Below are positions 17,202 through 46,682 of a DNA stretch of 64,000 nucleotides, one piece after another. The position numbers were made by a program, and so were the translations under genes. The DNA is from Myroides fluvii (lineage in GTDB: Bacteria; Bacteroidota; Bacteroidia; Flavobacteriales; Flavobacteriaceae): NCBI RefSeq assembly GCF_009792295.1, contig NZ_CP039934.1, positions 1,942,501-2,006,500 of the forward strand. The letters run 5' to 3'. A model generated the notes under the pieces. The model was not told the DNA's origin and ran no database searches. It was given only the letters and a program-made list of their open reading frames with translations. How positions within the stretch are numbered: position 1 is the stretch's first letter; each line of letters starts with the position of its first letter.

Positions 17202-18482
17202 ATGTTATATCAAAGAAGTAGTCAGCTTTTTGCAGAAGCTGAAAAAGTTATTCCCGGGGGAGTAAATTCGCCGGTTAGAGCATTTAAATCTGTAGGAGGT
17301 ACTCCCATATTTGTCAAAGAAGCGAAGGGAGCTTATTTGTATGATGTGGATGGAAATCGACTGATTGATTATATTAACTCATGGGGGCCTATGTTATTGG
17401 GACATGCTTACCCGCCAGTGGTAGATGCAGTCATTGAGAAAGCTAAAAAGGGAACTTCTTTTGGTATGCCAACAGAAATAGAAACTGAAATTGCAGCATT
17501 AGCTGTTTCCATGGTGCCAAATATTGATAAGATTCGATTTGTTAATTCAGGGACAGAAGCGTGTATGAGTGCTATTCGATTAGCTAGAGGATATACAGAT
17601 AGAGAGAAGATTATCAAGTTTAAAGGCTGTTATCACGGGCATTCGGATTCATTTTTGATTCAAGCAGGTAGTGGTGCAGTTACCTTTGGATCTCCTAATA
17701 GTCCTGGAGTGACACAAGGAACAGCTAAAGATACTTTGTTGGCAACGTATAATGATTTGGCTAATGTGGCTTCTATTTTCGAGGCAAATAAAGGAGAAAT
17801 AGCAGCTATTATTATAGAACCCGTTGCAGGAAATATGGGATGTGTTACGCCTAAAGCAGGATTTTTAGAAGGATTGCGTGAGTTGTGTGATGCACATGGA
17901 GCCTTGTTGGTTTTTGATGAAGTCATGACGGGATTTCGATTAGCACGAGGTGGAGCACAAGAGTTATTTGGCGTACGCGCAGATTTAGTTACTTTTGGTA
18001 AAGTGATTGGCGGTGGGCTACCTGTGGGAGCATTCGCCGGTTCTGCTCAAGTAATGGATTATTTAGCGCCTGTTGGACCTGTATATCAAGCCGGAACTTT
18101 ATCTGGTAATCCGTTGGCTATGGCAGCTGGATTGGCCATGTTACAAGCTATTAATAGTGATTTAGCCGTATTCCAACGCTTAGAAGAAAAAACAGCTTAT
18201 TTAGAGCAAGGAATGCGCCGTGTCTTAGATGGAAAACAAATAAAATATACCATTAATCGCGTAGGATCTATGATTTCCGTGTTTTTTGATGAACGCGAAG
18301 TTGTGGATTTCGATACGGCAGGTTATGGAAATAATGAAACGTTTAAGAAATTTTTCCACGGCCTTCTAAAAGAGGGAGTTTACATTGCCCCATCTTCTTA
18401 CGAAACTTGGTTTATTACGGATGCGTTGACCTATGAAGATTTAGATTTTACGATTCAAGCGGTAGAAAAAGTATTCGCTTAA
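17202..18482 (+). CDS. hemL: Glutamate-1-semialdehyde 2,1-aminomutase
   Basis: 426 residues, standard length. A class III PLP aminotransferase fold: N-terminal [46 protein letters not shown], and the PLP lysine K267 in [18 protein letters not shown]. It forms 5-aminolevulinate from glutamate-1-semialdehyde, the last step of the C5 route to tetrapyrroles. It is the third gene of the rightward set and is followed by a strong terminator. Assignment is secure; the close packing behind a cell wall hydrolase probably reflects gene order rather than shared function. Confidence 0.97.
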
Positions 18483-41628: not shown

Positions 41629-41852
41629 TATTTTATATAGAATTAGGGGTAAAAATAAAAAGCAACGATTGTTTTTCTTGCATCTGAAAAGTAAAATACC
41701 ATATAGATGGTAGACTAGGAGAATTAAAGAATTTAGTATTCAAATAGTATGTTTTTATAAATATTGTAATCAAACAATGAAATCTTTTTTATTCTACTCA
41801 AAAGAAGAGAGTAATAGAATTGATTTAAAAATGATAACTAGTTGTTTTTTTG
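41629..41852. other. Intergenic, no gene seen
   Basis: 224 AT-rich bases upstream of both the symporter and the TonB-dependent receptor genes. Together with the regulatory repeats and promoter to 41947 the gap is 319 bases. Apart from those repeats I see no structure in it. Confidence 0.5.
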
Positions 41853-41887
41853 CCATTCGCACACCTAAATCAACCATTCGCGCACCC
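41853..41887 (+). promoter_or_regulatory. Paired direct repeats, candidate LytTR-regulator site 1
   Basis: CCATTCGCACACC (41853-41865) and CCATTCGCGCACC (41874-41886) differ at one base and start exactly 21 bases apart, i.e. two helical turns. They end about 6 bases before the TTG of the promoter. LytTR domains are known to bind 9-bp direct repeats with this spacing; the regulator encoded 4 kb downstream is the natural candidate. A similar site precedes the next gene. Confidence 0.65.
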
Positions 41888-41892
41888 TTTTT

Positions 41893-41922
41893 TTGAGTGG
41901 AAGGAGTTGTGAACTACGTTTG
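41893..41922 (+). promoter_or_regulatory. Promoter of the TonB-dependent receptor gene
   Basis: TTG (41893-41895), 19 bases, TACGTTTG (41915-41922). This fits the Bacteroidota consensus; start codon ATG at 41948. Confidence 0.6.
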
Positions 41923-41947
41923 TATTGTAATTGAGAATAGAGAGAAG

Positions 41948-44080
41948 ATGAAAATACGGTTTGGTTTGTTGGTCACCTTGGGATGGTTTACCCTGCAAGC
42001 GCAGCATATACGAATAGCAGGGACTGTGCTAAATAAGAAGCATAAACCTATTGAACAAGTCAATGTGTATCTTGAAGGAAGTTTTGACGGAGCGTTGTCT
42101 GATGCGAAAGGATATTTTTCATTTGAAGTTGAAGATAGCCTGGTAGAGGGGGTGTTGAAATTAAAGCACCCAAATTATCTCCATCTCACAGTTCCCATTG
42201 CAATCAAACCCAATACTGTTCATCAGTTTGTCATGCAGGAAGGTGAAGAGTTGCTAGGAGAAATCGTCATCAAGACAGAGGGGAATGATCAAAGAAGAAA
42301 AAGTGAGCATTTCGTTTTTAATGCCATGGATGTTGTTAGTACTGCAGGGAGTCCAGGTAATATTATGGGGGTTTTGAATACTTTGCCAGGTGCACAAACT
42401 AATGGGGAAGACGGACGACTTTTAATACGGGGGGGAAAAGCAGAGGAAAGCGGTATGTATGTCAATGGGATTAAAGTATTTCAACCTTATACGGCTACAG
42501 TAGGAAATGTACCTGTTCGATCTAAATTTAATCCGTTCTTGTTTAAAGGGATGTCATTTTCTGCAGGAGGATATAGTGCGGAATTTGGAGACGCTTTATC
42601 AGGTATATTGGAATTAGATACTTCGAATGCAATTGATCCATCGCGAAAAGATAGTTCTATTTCTACCGTTGGAGTTAGTTTTGCTGAAACGCATCAGTGG
42701 GGGAAAAACTCGTTGTCTTACCATTTGAACTACCTAAATTTAGGAGCGTACACCAAGGTTATCAAACAACAGTATACAACGAAAAAACCATTTGCCACTA
42801 CATCAGGTGAAATGGTGTATAAACGAGAGATAAAAGAAGGAGGATATAAACTGTATGTTGCAGTTGACCTCTCTGAAATGGAATATGAACAAGCTGTAAA
42901 GCCAAGTCAGCGAATCGATACCTTATCTTTTCGATCAAATAACGTTTATCTGAATAGTGTATACCTTAAAAAACTAACGCCGTTTTTAAAATTAGATATC
43001 GGTACGGGATTAGGCTATACTCATTATAAAGGAAATTATAATGAAAAGTACATGGGAAGGAAGAATTGGGATTTGAATCAAAAAGTAAAGTTGTCATATC
43101 AATGGAATCGAGCGTTGCATACGATGGTTGGAGTAGATATTCATCGTGCTCAATTAGATTTGACAAGAGGGATAGAGGGATATACTCAAGATATCGAAGC
43201 CGATGCAACAAACACTGCATTCTTTGTTGAGAATAACTGGACAATTGTACCTGATTTAACGCTGAGAGCAGGAGTGCGAGTAAATAAATATACTGCAATT
43301 CCAACATGGACGATTGAACCAAGAACGAGAGTAACCTATCAATTGGATGCTAAACAACAGCTCTCTTTTTCATATGGAATTTTTAATCAAACACTAGCAC
43401 TCGAACAGGCATTGGAGGTGAAAAAAGAAGATTGGATGCAGGCCAGTCACTATATCCTGAATTATTCTTACACCTTTAAAAAACGAGAGCTAAGGACTGA
43501 ATTGTTTTACAAAACCTATGATAAGTTGCTGCTAACTCCTGTAAGAGAAGAAAAAGCATTCACGCAATTAGGAGAAGGATATGCAAGAGGTCTAGACTTG
43601 TTTTGGAGAGACAATACAACCTTTAAAAACTTTGCGTATTGGATAACCTATACCTATCTCGATTCTAAGCGAAAGGAGGCGTATTGGGAGCAATCGATAC
43701 AACCCTCGTATGTATCAAAGCATCACGTAGCTGTTGTGACGAAATACTGGATAGAAAAATGGAAATCTCAAGTAAGTATGACTTATAACTACAGTAGCCC
43801 CCGTTATTTTTATTCGGTTGATAGCACAAATCAAGTGCGGTATACAACTAGTGCTATTCACAATGTGAGTCTAAGTTGGGCTTATTTAGTAAGCGGACAG
43901 AAAATACTCTATGCTTCGGTGGATAATCTACTGGGACGCAATCCTACCTATGCTTATCAGTTTAATCAAATTGGAGGACAACCAGATTTGGTTCAGGCTT
44001 CTGCAAAGCGATTTATCTATGTTGGGTTTATGTGGACAATTAGCAAAGATAAAAAGTCAAATCAATTAGAGAATCTATAA
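41948..44080 (+). CDS. TonB-dependent receptor with carboxypeptidase-like N-terminal domain
   Basis: About 710 residues from ATG 41948 (MKIRFGLLVTLGW, a normal signal peptide ending LQAQ); the open frame extends upstream to a GTG that lies among promoter elements. A carboxypeptidase-D regulatory-like domain covers about 22-100 (IAGTVLNKKHKPIEQVNVYL), then a plug with NTLPGAQTNGEDGRLLIRGG and SGMYVNGIKVFQPY. The barrel ends with FIYVGFMWTISKD. It is shorter than the SusC proteins and has no SusD partner, so it resembles a siderophore- or small-ligand-type receptor. The ligand is unknown. Direct repeats and a promoter lie just upstream and are repeated before the next gene. Confidence 0.9.
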   Translation: MKIRFGLLVTLGWFTLQAQHIRIAGTVLNKKHKPIEQVNVYLEGSFDGALSDAKGYFSFEVEDSLVEGVLKLKHPNYLHLTVPIAIKPNTVHQFVMQEGEELLGEIVIKTEGNDQRRKSEHFVFNAMDVVSTAGSPGNIMGVLNTLPGAQTNGEDGRLLIRGGKAEESGMYVNGIKVFQPYTATVGNVPVRSKFNPFLFKGMSFSAGGYSAEFGDALSGILELDTSNAIDPSRKDSSISTVGVSFAETHQWGKNSLSYHLNYLNLGAYTKVIKQQYTTKKPFATTSGEMVYKREIKEGGYKLYVAVDLSEMEYEQAVKPSQRIDTLSFRSNNVYLNSVYLKKLTPFLKLDIGTGLGYTHYKGNYNEKYMGRKNWDLNQKVKLSYQWNRALHTMVGVDIHRAQLDLTRGIEGYTQDIEADATNTAFFVENNWTIVPDLTLRAGVRVNKYTAIPTWTIEPRTRVTYQLDAKQQLSFSYGIFNQTLALEQALEVKKEDWMQASHYILNYSYTFKKRELRTELFYKTYDKLLLTPVREEKAFTQLGEGYARGLDLFWRDNTTFKNFAYWITYTYLDSKRKEAYWEQSIQPSYVSKHHVAVVTKYWIEKWKSQVSMTYNYSSPRYFYSVDSTNQVRYTTSAIHNVSLSWAYLVSGQKILYASVDNLLGRNPTYAYQFNQIGGQPDLVQASAKRFIYVGFMWTISKDKKSNQLENL

Positions 44081-44082
44081 GT

Positions 44083-44115
44083 ACAGTTCAGACGTACTCC
44101 TTGACCATTCGCGCA
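44083..44115 (+). promoter_or_regulatory. Paired direct repeats, candidate LytTR-regulator site 2
   Basis: ACAGTTCAG (from 44083) and ACCATTCGC (from 44104) start 21 bases apart. The first fits the LytTR half-site pattern I remember, [TA][AC][CA]GTTN[AG][TG], at every position. The second shares the CCATTCGCGCA core with site 1. As at site 1, the second repeat ends just before the TTG of a promoter. Confidence 0.6.
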
Positions 44116-44124
44116 GTGTTGTTT

Positions 44125-44153
44125 TTGGTTTAGGTCATGTTGCTCTACATTTA
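44125..44153 (+). promoter_or_regulatory. Promoter of the TPR-like secreted protein gene
   Basis: TTG (44125-44127), 18 bases, TACATTTA (44146-44153), seven of eight matches to the -7 box. The distance from the repeats to the start codon at 44177 is almost the same as in front of the receptor gene. Confidence 0.5.
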
Positions 44154-44176
44154 GTTTATATTTAAAAATGTACTCG

Positions 44177-44800
44177 ATGAAAAAGTTATTAATTTTAGGT
44201 TTTACTGTATTTAGTTTAGTGTGTTTTGGGCAATCTAAATACGAAAAAGGTATGCAGAAAGCCCTTGAGCAATGGCAAGGTGGGCAAATAAAAGAAGCTA
44301 TAGCTCTTTTGGAGCGCATTGCTGCTTCTGACAAGGAAAATTGGGTGCCTGTATATTATCAGGTATTTATTGAAATAACACAGGGTTTCAACAATCCACA
44401 GGAAGCAGCTGTAGAAGAGGAGATTGAACGCAATCGCATCATCATTGAGCAATGGCTGAATAAAGGAGGGGAAGAATGGTATGTGTTAAAAGGAATGAAT
44501 GAAACATTAGAACTCATTACTGATCCCATGACGAAAGGGATGACTCAAAGTCCAATCATTAATCAAGCCTATGAGCAAGCTGTAGCATTAAATCCAAAGA
44601 ATCCAAGAGCAGTATATTCCCTTGCTAGTTTTCATTTAAATAGTGCGAAATTTATGAAAGTAGATGTAGATTACTATTGTAAGATGTTGCATAAATCAAT
44701 TGAATTATTCGATCAACAAACAAGTGAGATTCCTTTCTATCCCTCTTGGGGAAAGGATTGGGCTGTAAAAACACAAGAGTTGTGTGTAAATAAAAATTAA
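44177..44800 (+). CDS. Secreted TPR-like protein of unknown function
   Basis: About 207 residues from ATG 44177 (MKKLLILGFTVFSLVCFGQ, a normal signal peptide cleaved after about residue 18); an ATG 9 bases upstream is also possible. The mature protein is helical. KGMQKALEQWQGGQIKEAIA LLERIAA and AYEQAVALNPKNPRAVYSLA look like two TPR-type repeats. Cys residues occur near the end (DYYCKML, TQELCVN). I do not recognise a family name with certainty, and similar small periplasmic proteins occur beside receptors in flavobacteria. It lies between the receptor and the kinase genes and has its own promoter with paired repeats, so it probably belongs to the same regulon. Confidence 0.65.
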   Translation: MKKLLILGFTVFSLVCFGQSKYEKGMQKALEQWQGGQIKEAIALLERIAASDKENWVPVYYQVFIEITQGFNNPQEAAVEEEIERNRIIIEQWLNKGGEEWYVLKGMNETLELITDPMTKGMTQSPIINQAYEQAVALNPKNPRAVYSLASFHLNSAKFMKVDVDYYCKMLHKSIELFDQQTSEIPFYPSWGKDWAVKTQELCVNKN

Positions 44801-44853: not shown

Positions 44854-45939
44854 ATGTGTATTAATTGGTATCGACATATAACATTAGTGGTGATTTTTGG
44901 TGTAGTTAGCTGTATGTCTACGTCTTATTATTACTTTAATAAAGCGAGACATGTAACTGATTTTTCTTATGTGGATTATCTATTCTCGAAAAATGCACTG
45001 CTTTCTTTTTTGATTACCTTACTTATTTATGGGGCGAACGTTGCTACTACGCTATTGTTGAATTTTATGCTGAACAAACGAGATCAGAAGGCAAAAATTC
45101 CATTGCGTAGAAATTTGCGCAATATCGTATTTTTTGCCAATGGGTTACTGGTGTCTATTTTCTCGTATTATTTTTTCTTGAGTGTTTTGTTGTGGGCTTT
45201 TTATGATGTCTCCTTCTCTTCCTTTTATTCTGGAAGAAACTTGCATCTAGCTGATTTGCTAGGTGTGGTGTTAATTAGTTTTTTTATTATTCTGATTGTA
45301 TTTGTATTTTCATATAATGATCAGGTAAGACTGCTAGAATTGAAAAACAAAGAAATGGAAATTGCGTTGCAGAAAACCCAAATAGCACACATGAAAGAAC
45401 AATTGTCTCCTCATTTTTTGTTTAACAATTTAAATGTGTTAATTAGTACGATTCAAGAAGATTCAGCAAAAGCAGAGCAATTCGCACGTTCTTTTTCTAA
45501 AATATACCGCTATGTGTTGGAACGTCTTGATGATACCTCTTGTGCGTTAGCCGATGAACTGCTATTTATTAAAGACTACGTTTATCTGTTGAATGTTCGC
45601 TATGACAATGCGATTGATTTTCATATTGAAAAAGAGGTGATGCAAAATAGCGAAGTACAAGTGCCTACGTTAAGCTTGCAATTGTTGATAGAGAATGTAG
45701 TGAAGCACAATACAATTCCGTCCGAAGGGAAGCTGAGAATAGAATTAAAAATGGAGGGTGATTATCTGGTTCTGTGGAATGAAAAAAGTGGAAAACCCAA
45801 TCAAGTGTATTCATCAGGTGTGGGATTGCAAAATTTGTCTAAACGATGCCAGTTGTTGGTGAAAAAAGAGATAGAAATACAAGATGTAACAGATGGGTTT
45901 AGTGTGAAAATACCACTGTATAGTAAAGATGAAATATGA
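44854..45939 (+). CDS. LytS-type sensor histidine kinase
   Basis: 361 residues. Four membrane segments lie at about 6-27, 46-75, 88-118 and 129-154, with little periplasmic loop, so the signal may be sensed in the membrane. The His_kinase domain has the phospho-acceptor H187 in LSPHFLFNNLNVL. The ATPase part has the N box (LQLLIENVVKHN) and a G box (SGVGLQNLSKRCQ). The coiled coil LELKNKEMEIALQKTQIAHM links membrane and kinase. Its stop overlaps the start of the LytTR regulator gene by 4 nt (ATGA), so they are a co-translated pair. Confidence 0.93.
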   Translation: MCINWYRHITLVVIFGVVSCMSTSYYYFNKARHVTDFSYVDYLFSKNALLSFLITLLIYGANVATTLLLNFMLNKRDQKAKIPLRRNLRNIVFFANGLLVSIFSYYFFLSVLLWAFYDVSFSSFYSGRNLHLADLLGVVLISFFIILIVFVFSYNDQVRLLELKNKEMEIALQKTQIAHMKEQLSPHFLFNNLNVLISTIQEDSAKAEQFARSFSKIYRYVLERLDDTSCALADELLFIKDYVYLLNVRYDNAIDFHIEKEVMQNSEVQVPTLSLQLLIENVVKHNTIPSEGKLRIELKMEGDYLVLWNEKSGKPNQVYSSGVGLQNLSKRCQLLVKKEIEIQDVTDGFSVKIPLYSKDEI

Positions 45940-46682
45940 ATATAGTTATTATAGAAGACGAAAAACCTGCTGCGCGATTATTGATGCGCGAGTTGGAGAA
46001 GTTAGGCTTTACTGTGCAGCAGATGTTATATTCAGTAGGAGAAGCCATTCCTTGGTTTCTACAGAATGAAGAACCCGATTTAATCTTTGCCGACATTCAA
46101 TTGACAGATGGGTTGTCATTGGAAATATTCGAGCAGGTAGTATTGAAACACAGCGCTATTATCTTTGTGACGAGTTTTGATCATTATGCGGTGAAAGCGT
46201 TTAAACTAAACAGTATTGATTATTTATTAAAACCCATTGATCCGACAGCGTTAGTAGCTGCAATCAATAAGTACAGAACACAACAGAATAGAATCGGACA
46301 AAAAGTACAAATCCTCAAGACCGCGCATGATGCTCCTGCTTATGCTAAACGGCTAATGACGAAAGTGGGTATGCACATCAAAATGGTTTTACTTGAGGAA
46401 GTAGTGTGTTTTTATAGGGAAGATCGCGGAGTGTATATGGCGACGAGAGAAGGGAAAAATCAGTTGTTAGAAGAATCTTCAATTGAAGCTGTTTTAAAAA
46501 TGGTTGATCCAACTAAGTTTTTTCGCGTTAATCGCTATCAAGTTGTGGCGATTGATCATATTGTTCAAATCGTTCAACTGTCGACTTCTCGACTTAAATT
46601 AGTATTGTTGAACTATAGTGATGAGGTGATTGTCAGCAGAGAACGCGTGAGTGATTTTAAACTGTGGCTTGGGGCAAATTAA
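45936..46682 (+). CDS. LytTR-family response regulator
   Basis: 248 residues. The receiver domain (1-120) has the acidic pocket E7/D8/E9, phospho-acceptor D53 in FADIQLTDG, and the Lys of YLLKPIDP. The LytTR DNA-binding domain covers about 145-245 (MHIKMVLLEEVVCFYREDRG, FFRVNRYQVVAIDHI, VIVSRERVSDFKLWL). The partner is the kinase encoded just before it. The likely targets are the paired direct repeats upstream of the receptor and TPR-like genes, because LytTR proteins bind such sites. No terminator is seen directly after the gene before the rpsU promoter. Confidence 0.94.
   Translation: MNIVIIEDEKPAARLLMRELEKLGFTVQQMLYSVGEAIPWFLQNEEPDLIFADIQLTDGLSLEIFEQVVLKHSAIIFVTSFDHYAVKAFKLNSIDYLLKPIDPTALVAAINKYRTQQNRIGQKVQILKTAHDAPAYAKRLMTKVGMHIKMVLLEEVVCFYREDRGVYMATREGKNQLLEESSIEAVLKMVDPTKFFRVNRYQVVAIDHIVQIVQLSTSRLKLVLLNYSDEVIVSRERVSDFKLWLGAN

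Follow-up and report, generated by a model that had tools for sequence, protein, structure and literature searches.

The question raised by this locus is whether a LytTR response regulator acts at two pairs of direct repeats that lie next to its own gene. The locus is found in Myroides fluvii (contig NZ_CP039934.1 of assembly GCF_009792295.1, a single contig of 3,766,904 bases), in a stretch of 64,000 nucleotides (positions 1,942,501 to 2,006,500) which is called the window here. It comprises a gene for a TonB-dependent-receptor-like outer-membrane protein, a gene for a TPR-like protein and the genes of a sensor histidine kinase and of the LytTR regulator. The receptor gene and the TPR gene are each preceded by a repeat pair. 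A sequence-only reading of the window had proposed both genes as targets of the regulator. The position and spacing of the repeats and the geometry of the promoters support this proposal, as does their conservation in many genera next to a related pair of kinase and LytTR regulator. Very probably, the neighbouring regulator docks at both repeat pairs. We infer this link between regulator and sites from genomic comparison.

Direct reading of the sequence confirmed the repeats. Upstream of the receptor gene CCATTCGC starts at 41853 and again at 41874, and in the promoter of the TPR gene ACAGTTCAG starts at 44083 and ACCATTCGC at 44104, the spacing being 21 bp in each pair. As 12-mers, the half-sites of the receptor promoter are GCCATTCGCACA (distal, 41852..41863) and, 21 bp further, ACCATTCGCGCA (proximal, 41873..41884). 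Those of the TPR promoter are ACAGTTCAGACG (distal, 44083..44094) and ACCATTCGCGCA (proximal, 44104..44115). All features are on the + strand. The distance from the first repeat to the start codon is 95 bp at the receptor gene (ATG 41948) and 94 bp at the TPR gene if the ATG at 44177 is used; an alternative in-frame ATG lies further upstream, at 44168. A -7 box and a TTG box had been claimed for both promoters. The former was found in both, as TACGTTTG (41915..41922) at the receptor and as the -7-like box TACATTTA (44146..44153) at the TPR gene, and its placement is tighter than first noted, since in both cases the first bases of the box and of the second 12-mer are exactly 42 bp apart. The TTG box did not hold as such. 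Instead, a T run is conserved about 15-21 bp past the start of the second repeat. In the receptor promoter this run (41888..41894), probably the -33 region, is conserved at the same offset in relatives. Published LytTR operators consist of two direct repeats, each 9-11 bp long and separated by 11-13 bp (PMC4847170, PMC2766830). Both window pairs fit this definition.

For analysis of conservation, 85 upstream regions of TPR genes and 38 of receptor genes (123 regions) were compared, which stem mostly from other Flavobacteriaceae and are not a random sample. The 77 relatives are 80 stretches minus L142 and L143, which belong to the window genome itself, and L144 (genome G318), and were picked by hand, nearly in rank order, from 159 genomes with a TPR match. 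Receptor regions were used if the receptor scored above 150 bits and its start lay more than 200 bp inside the stretch (38, the window included). A TPR homologue is present in 159 of the 299 family genomes; among 84 TPR loci, the stretch contains a kinase in 83 and a LytTR regulator above 140 bits in 77. Exact pairs of the half-site ACMRYTC with a spacing of 21 occur in 21 of the 85 TPR regions and in 10 of the 38 receptor regions, and at the remaining spacings from 8 to 44 in none of the former and at most one of the latter. When one mismatch was allowed, 45/85 and 28/38 regions contained a pair at 21, compared to means of 0.13 and 0.02 in dinucleotide shuffles; with two mismatches the values were 56/85 and 37/38, compared to 3.05 and 1.15. 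A pair at ≤2 mismatches is present in 93 regions, and in 83 of these the box TAnnTTTG (≤1 mismatch), which played no part in finding the pairs, is located at +42 (next most frequent offset: 7). The sites are also oriented: in 86 whole loci (794,533 bases), 106 have the direction of the operon and 9 the opposite one. The TPR gene is directly preceded by a DUF2141 gene in 20 of 84 loci, and in 19 of these 20 a site lies within 200 bp upstream of the DUF2141 gene, so the site follows the first gene of the transcription unit. Start codons were assigned mechanically as first starts, and some distances to the start are therefore too short. The element of the family reads ACAATTCATC-N11-ACARTTCRGT, with base counts taken from those non-Myroides regions (64 of 107) in which a pair occurs at ≤1 mismatch.

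These data bear on two other explanations of the repeats. A chance origin without function might be suspected from the abundance of the single half-site, as the lone ACCATTCGC is unspecific and gave 22 matches (≤1 mismatch) in the window against 9.5 expected, and from the lack of the TPR-side pair in some relatives (see below). However, the spacing, shuffle and genome-wide controls contradict it, and the conserved spacing and box offset speak so strongly against it that chance can practically be dismissed. The very rigid coupling to the -7 box could also be expected if the repeats belonged to another type of transcription factor or to an unusual promoter class. We consider this very improbable, since half-site length and spacing match published LytTR sites and a LytTR regulator is encoded in the stretch in the 77 of 84 TPR loci mentioned above.

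The window sites were then searched in the whole genome. CCATTCGC-N13-CCATTCGC has one occurrence with zero mismatches, at the receptor gene, and with ≤3 mismatches 35 matches were obtained compared to 4 for the reversed pattern. A stricter pattern, CCRTTCRCRCA-N10-CCRTTCRCRCA, which was derived from Myroides receptor sites including that of the window, had two matches in the genome at ≤3 mismatches, namely the two pairs of the window, with 0 and 3 mismatches, and none in the reversed control. A general TonB-receptor regulon under ACCATTCGC pairs, which the sequence-only reading had put forward for such a search, was rejected because the stricter pattern finds these two sites only; a very small set of two promoters is what the search supports. 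Pairs of ACMRYTC (≤1 mismatch) are uninformative in this genome. Their count (81 versus 42 reversed) is inflated by tandem arrays of the AACCGTT/AACTGTT type, and many of the pairs lie in AACCGTT-type arrays. Such arrays, with a period of 7 bp, occur outside the window at G000:C1:2590321-2591444, 18290-18387, 3572235-3572318 and 3746864-3746961. The stretches around ten LytTR matches (L308-L317) contained no pair at ≤1 mismatch, these stretches being too short to reach sites already known.

The same four genes are present in seven other loci (L031-L036 and L144). In six loci of the nearest relatives, the regulator is 73-78% identical to that of the window; five of them are named Myroides and one is from a metagenome-assembled genome of the Flavobacteriaceae. 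Upstream of the receptor gene, CC[AG]TTC occurs twice at 21 bp in the eight loci, with the distal copy kept in 8/8 and the proximal one in 7/8 (CAGTTC in L031), while the DNA on either side is scrambled. The Myroides form of the half-site is ACC[AG]TTC[GA]C[GA]CA. With ≤3 mismatches the stricter paired pattern was listed for 72 places in 59 of the 299 family genomes, compared to 81 for the reversed control, which is chance level. The single exact match is the receptor site of the window, and matches with one mismatch are G017:C4:113151 and G011:C29:72635. Leaving these two places aside, there is therefore no sign of the Myroides spelling beyond the Myroides lineage in these 299 genomes. Pairs of the CCATTYAYACA type at 21 bp were seen in other flavobacterial genomes (for instance G011:C29:72635-72666, G013:C21:214515-214546 and G294:C1:1048160-1048191) in a search whose total is at chance level; a different class of LytTR regulators may use them as operators.

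A tree of 88 regulators places the eight window-type proteins in a single group (100/100), whose sister is a paralogue group of three (98/89) including L142 of the window genome. Since the stems of both groups are long, part of this sister relation could be due to long-branch attraction. The clade of the neighbouring regulator evolves fast, and its apparent sister is a paralogue whose sites are of the family type. Both copies of the regulator are present in two genomes, that of the window and that of Myroides odoratus XSfan (L033, L038). In the window genome the paralogue gene is located at G000:C1:264842-265603 (locus L142, G000:C1:263000-271000), and its operon has retained a kinase with a 2TM domain and has a pair of its own, ACGGTTCATCC/ACAGTTCATCC. 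In the same locus, a small signal-peptide-like open reading frame precedes the kinase gene and a 134-aa frame without Pfam match lies between kinase and regulator.

This paralogue is the most likely candidate if the window sites are read mainly by another LytTR regulator and the neighbour serves other targets. Another regulator could act there because the genome has ten LytTR matches; moreover, the paralogue belongs to the sister group, and the distal TPR half-site ACAGTTCAG is nearer to the family type. On the other hand, the pair of the paralogue operon is clearly unlike the window sites, and in all eight loci compared the window-type regulator is accompanied by Myroides-form receptor sites. 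A main role of another LytTR protein is thus improbable, and the neighbouring regulator is the preferred candidate.

In the LytTR domain, S161, N163, K164, T166 and N217 are identical in 69/69 family regulators, a set which excludes eight long-branch or divergent regulators (L040, L042-L045, L050, L143, L147), and in the three paralogues, whereas the eight window-type proteins have R, D, R, V and T at these positions. Many further positions of the window-type LytTR domain differ as well. Codons 161-166 (REDRGV, 46416..46433, + strand) form a candidate specificity loop, for which the commonest residues in the 69 family regulators are SENKGT. Of the FhRhHRS motif, the window regulator has FFRVNRY (195-201), aligned to FFRCHNS of AgrA; the first four places fit and the HRS places read NRY. 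R197 and R200 are kept in all rows compared. Residue 201, equivalent to S202 of AgrA, which was reported as involved in DNA contact (PMC4227749), is K in 67/69 family regulators and 3/3 paralogues and Y or S in the window type. The proximal half-site is ACARTTCRGT in the family, with G9 in 64/64 sites, versus the Myroides form with C9 in 8/8. LytTR sites are described as lacking a common consensus, and specificity as set by variable loop residues (PMC4847170). In the Myroides lineage the repeats and the DNA-reading loop of the regulator appear to have changed together. This association counts as one independent observation, since it reflects a single evolutionary event, and we hypothesize that the residue changes caused the change of the half-site. 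From the one tree, we lean slightly towards a duplication of the ancestral flavobacterial circuit in Myroides, after which one copy would have kept the family half-sites and the other would have been re-spelled (proximal A3 to C, G9 to C and A11 to C) alongside the five LytTR residues. If true, two insulated LytTR circuits would exist in one cell, as a natural experiment on the sequence choice of a beta-sheet DNA-binding domain. Of all results here, this coupled change of loop and half-site is of greatest interest, and it can be tested in vitro.

The mechanism can be outlined as follows. The adjacent kinase would sense a signal, upon which the regulator (45936-46682) would be phosphorylated. 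It would then bind head-to-tail to the two half-sites, which are 21 bp or about two helical turns apart and thus on the same side of the DNA. From there, directly upstream of the promoter, it would help RNA polymerase, since the promoter has a -7 box but its -33 region is weak. The first of the two operators would drive the receptor gene and the second the TPR-kinase-regulator operon, which would result in positive feedback. The circuit itself may be derived from the LytTR circuit common in Flavobacteriaceae, with duplication of the regulator in the Myroides lineage and a change of the DNA-reading loop in one copy together with its sites. Most probably, in our judgement, the phosphorylated neighbour binds both operators and activates the receptor gene and its own operon, in a circuit derived by duplication of the common flavobacterial one.

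Activation by the phosphorylated neighbour is read from the layout of the window, which matches published LytTR layouts. In Streptococcus mutans, LytTR repeats lie just upstream of the -35 region and mediate positive feedback (PMC6193735), and the AgrA repeats are centred near -60 (PMC4227749). The sequence by itself does not give the direction of the effect, and the regulator could bind the sites as a repressor or act both ways through DNA bending. We regard this as improbable, since the layout is that expected of activation: the sites are entirely upstream of the promoter, their helical phase is constant, and a TTTG is not conserved in the -33 region.

Several observations weigh against activation of both promoters by the neighbouring regulator. 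The direction of the effect is deduced from position only, and the ten LytTR matches of the genome offer other candidates. The TPR-side pair was found with the one-mismatch rule in only one of the seven other Myroides-type loci (L035), and with two mismatches in the window, L031, L032, L035 and L144 and in none of L033, L034 and L036. In the three loci without it, the distance from the receptor stop to the TPR ATG is 80 bp (L033), 47 bp (L034) and 80 bp (L036); where it is found, the distance is 97 bp (L031), 97 bp (L032), 214 bp (L035) and 108 bp (L144). The window itself has 96 bp here (from 44080 to 44177). In loci without the TPR-side pair, the receptor promoter may serve the entire operon. 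In the wider comparison, seven of the 84 TPR loci lack a LytTR regulator above 140 bits within the stretch, 20 of the 84 have no one-mismatch site within 900 bp of the TPR start, with weaker pairs in some of them, and in 95 of 199 family genomes the family form was not matched. In the window genome itself, no DUF2141 match was obtained, and its three DUF2807 genes (L304-L306; L307 is the same open frame as L306) have no pair at ≤1 mismatch, so its regulon seems to be reduced.

In the family as a whole, the family form (≤1 mismatch) is present in 104 of the 199 genomes, and the reversed control gave 0 in each. Some real cases escape the pattern, for example G127, in which the pairs of cluster L158 are spelled differently. 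In a phylum-wide draw of 296 genomes it was found in 18, and 17 of these belong to the 30 rows from the family of the window (control: 2), and the pair also occurs in one Cyclobacteriaceae cluster (L050) and one Weeksellaceae cluster (L042). We looked at 20 further sites, picked by hand among the matches listed because they seemed far from the TPR gene, although in at least two cases (L284 and L295) the site belongs to a receptor gene less than 10 kb away from it. In 20/20, an open reading frame in the same direction starts 60-145 bp past the start of the site. Sorted by eye, with one locus per non-receptor type run through Pfam, the targets are seven DUF2141 genes, seven DUF2807/GIN units, three receptors, two PF00144 serine hydrolases and one ABC transporter. 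Two of the seven DUF2807/GIN units start with a small gene, and one such small gene has a DUF4440 match below the cut-off. Such targets suggest that the regulon is a programme of the cell surface or envelope. A common LytTR signalling system of Flavobacteriaceae thereby gains a defined operator and a predicted regulon, consisting of the receptor, DUF2141, TPR-kinase-regulator and DUF2807/GIN proteins and a few others. The rigid 21/42 layout with the -7 box should ease the finding of such operators in related genomes, and the natural variants of site and loop can be used for working out LytTR specificity.

The kind of mechanism is already known. HdrRM and BrsRM of S. mutans also combine a LytTR protein with positive feedback on the own operon and with direct repeats (9-12-9) that end shortly before the -35 region, but their regulators pair with a membrane inhibitor, whereas the window has a histidine kinase and a receiver-LytTR protein with an outer-membrane receptor as predicted target (PMC6193735). 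AgrA of Staphylococcus aureus is likewise a LytTR response regulator with direct repeats near -60 which activates its own operon (PMC4227749). YpdA/YpdB of E. coli shares the LytS-type kinase, the LytTR regulator and the two direct repeats, but differs in its target, yhjX, and in its repeat, GGCATTTCAT (PMC4847170). The window system does not correspond to the LytTR regulatory systems (LRS) of S. mutans, defined by a LytTR regulator and a membrane inhibitor, as its regulator has a receiver domain and is paired with a histidine kinase. The operator, the cluster and the regulon were not found described in the open literature, as judged from titles and the beginnings of abstracts, with subscription papers outside this coverage. 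Unlike the window system, AgrA serves quorum sensing, acts at another promoter type and has no outer-membrane receptor. AlgR of Pseudomonas aeruginosa has a half-site of the CCGTTCGTC type, which resembles the Myroides CCATTCGCGCA, in a different gene context. SusC/SusD loci and Fec-type loci with receptor and ECF sigma factor also have a TonB-dependent receptor beside other surface or regulatory genes, as found at the window.

The four genes of the locus are all on the + strand. The receptor-like protein (41948..44080, 710 aa) has a CarbopepD_reg_2 domain and a barrel (PF00593, 44.4 bits, cut-off 27), and the plug PF07715 just missed its cut-off (23.1 versus 23.9 bits). The TPR-like protein (44177..44800), with an N-terminal signal-like stretch as judged by eye, is encoded by the first gene of the putative TPR-kinase-regulator operon. 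It is followed after 53 bp by the gene of a sensor histidine kinase of the LytS/YpdA type (44854..45939, 361 aa), which has PF06580 above the cut-off and membrane segments judged by eye and is located next to the LytTR regulator gene. The two genes overlap by 4 bp. The response regulator (45936..46682, 248 aa) consists of a receiver and a LytTR domain (PF00072 and PF04397, both above the cut-off). No SusD, ECF sigma or anti-sigma gene was found among these four genes by the scan, other loci being inspected by eye only, and a search of the plasmid collection gave no match. In a profile search for solved LytTR structures, 3d6w was the single credible match.

The kinases of L142 and L145, which are of the common type and were scanned with Pfam, have a 2TM domain, which the window kinase does not show. 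In several loci, small proteins whose N-terminal pattern looks similar by eye are encoded between kinase and regulator. Extra sites past the kinase gene and ahead of the regulator gene were observed in family clusters, for instance in L201 (6591), L205 (6429), L175 (6567) and L149 (7018). A mutation table for Flavobacterium johnsoniae contains a LytTR/kinase pair (FJOH_RS09515/09520) that is mutated in each of five replicate columns (PMC10197871). Finally, four loci with a related LytTR regulator, three from Polaribacter and one from Croceitalea (L044 2419, L048 2402, L049 2398 and L046 2320), have ACARTTCAATACA-like pairs, which vary in L044 and L046, and a TANNTTTG-like box again at +42. Since these pairs share the +42 box, the geometry may extend to a wider LytTR group.

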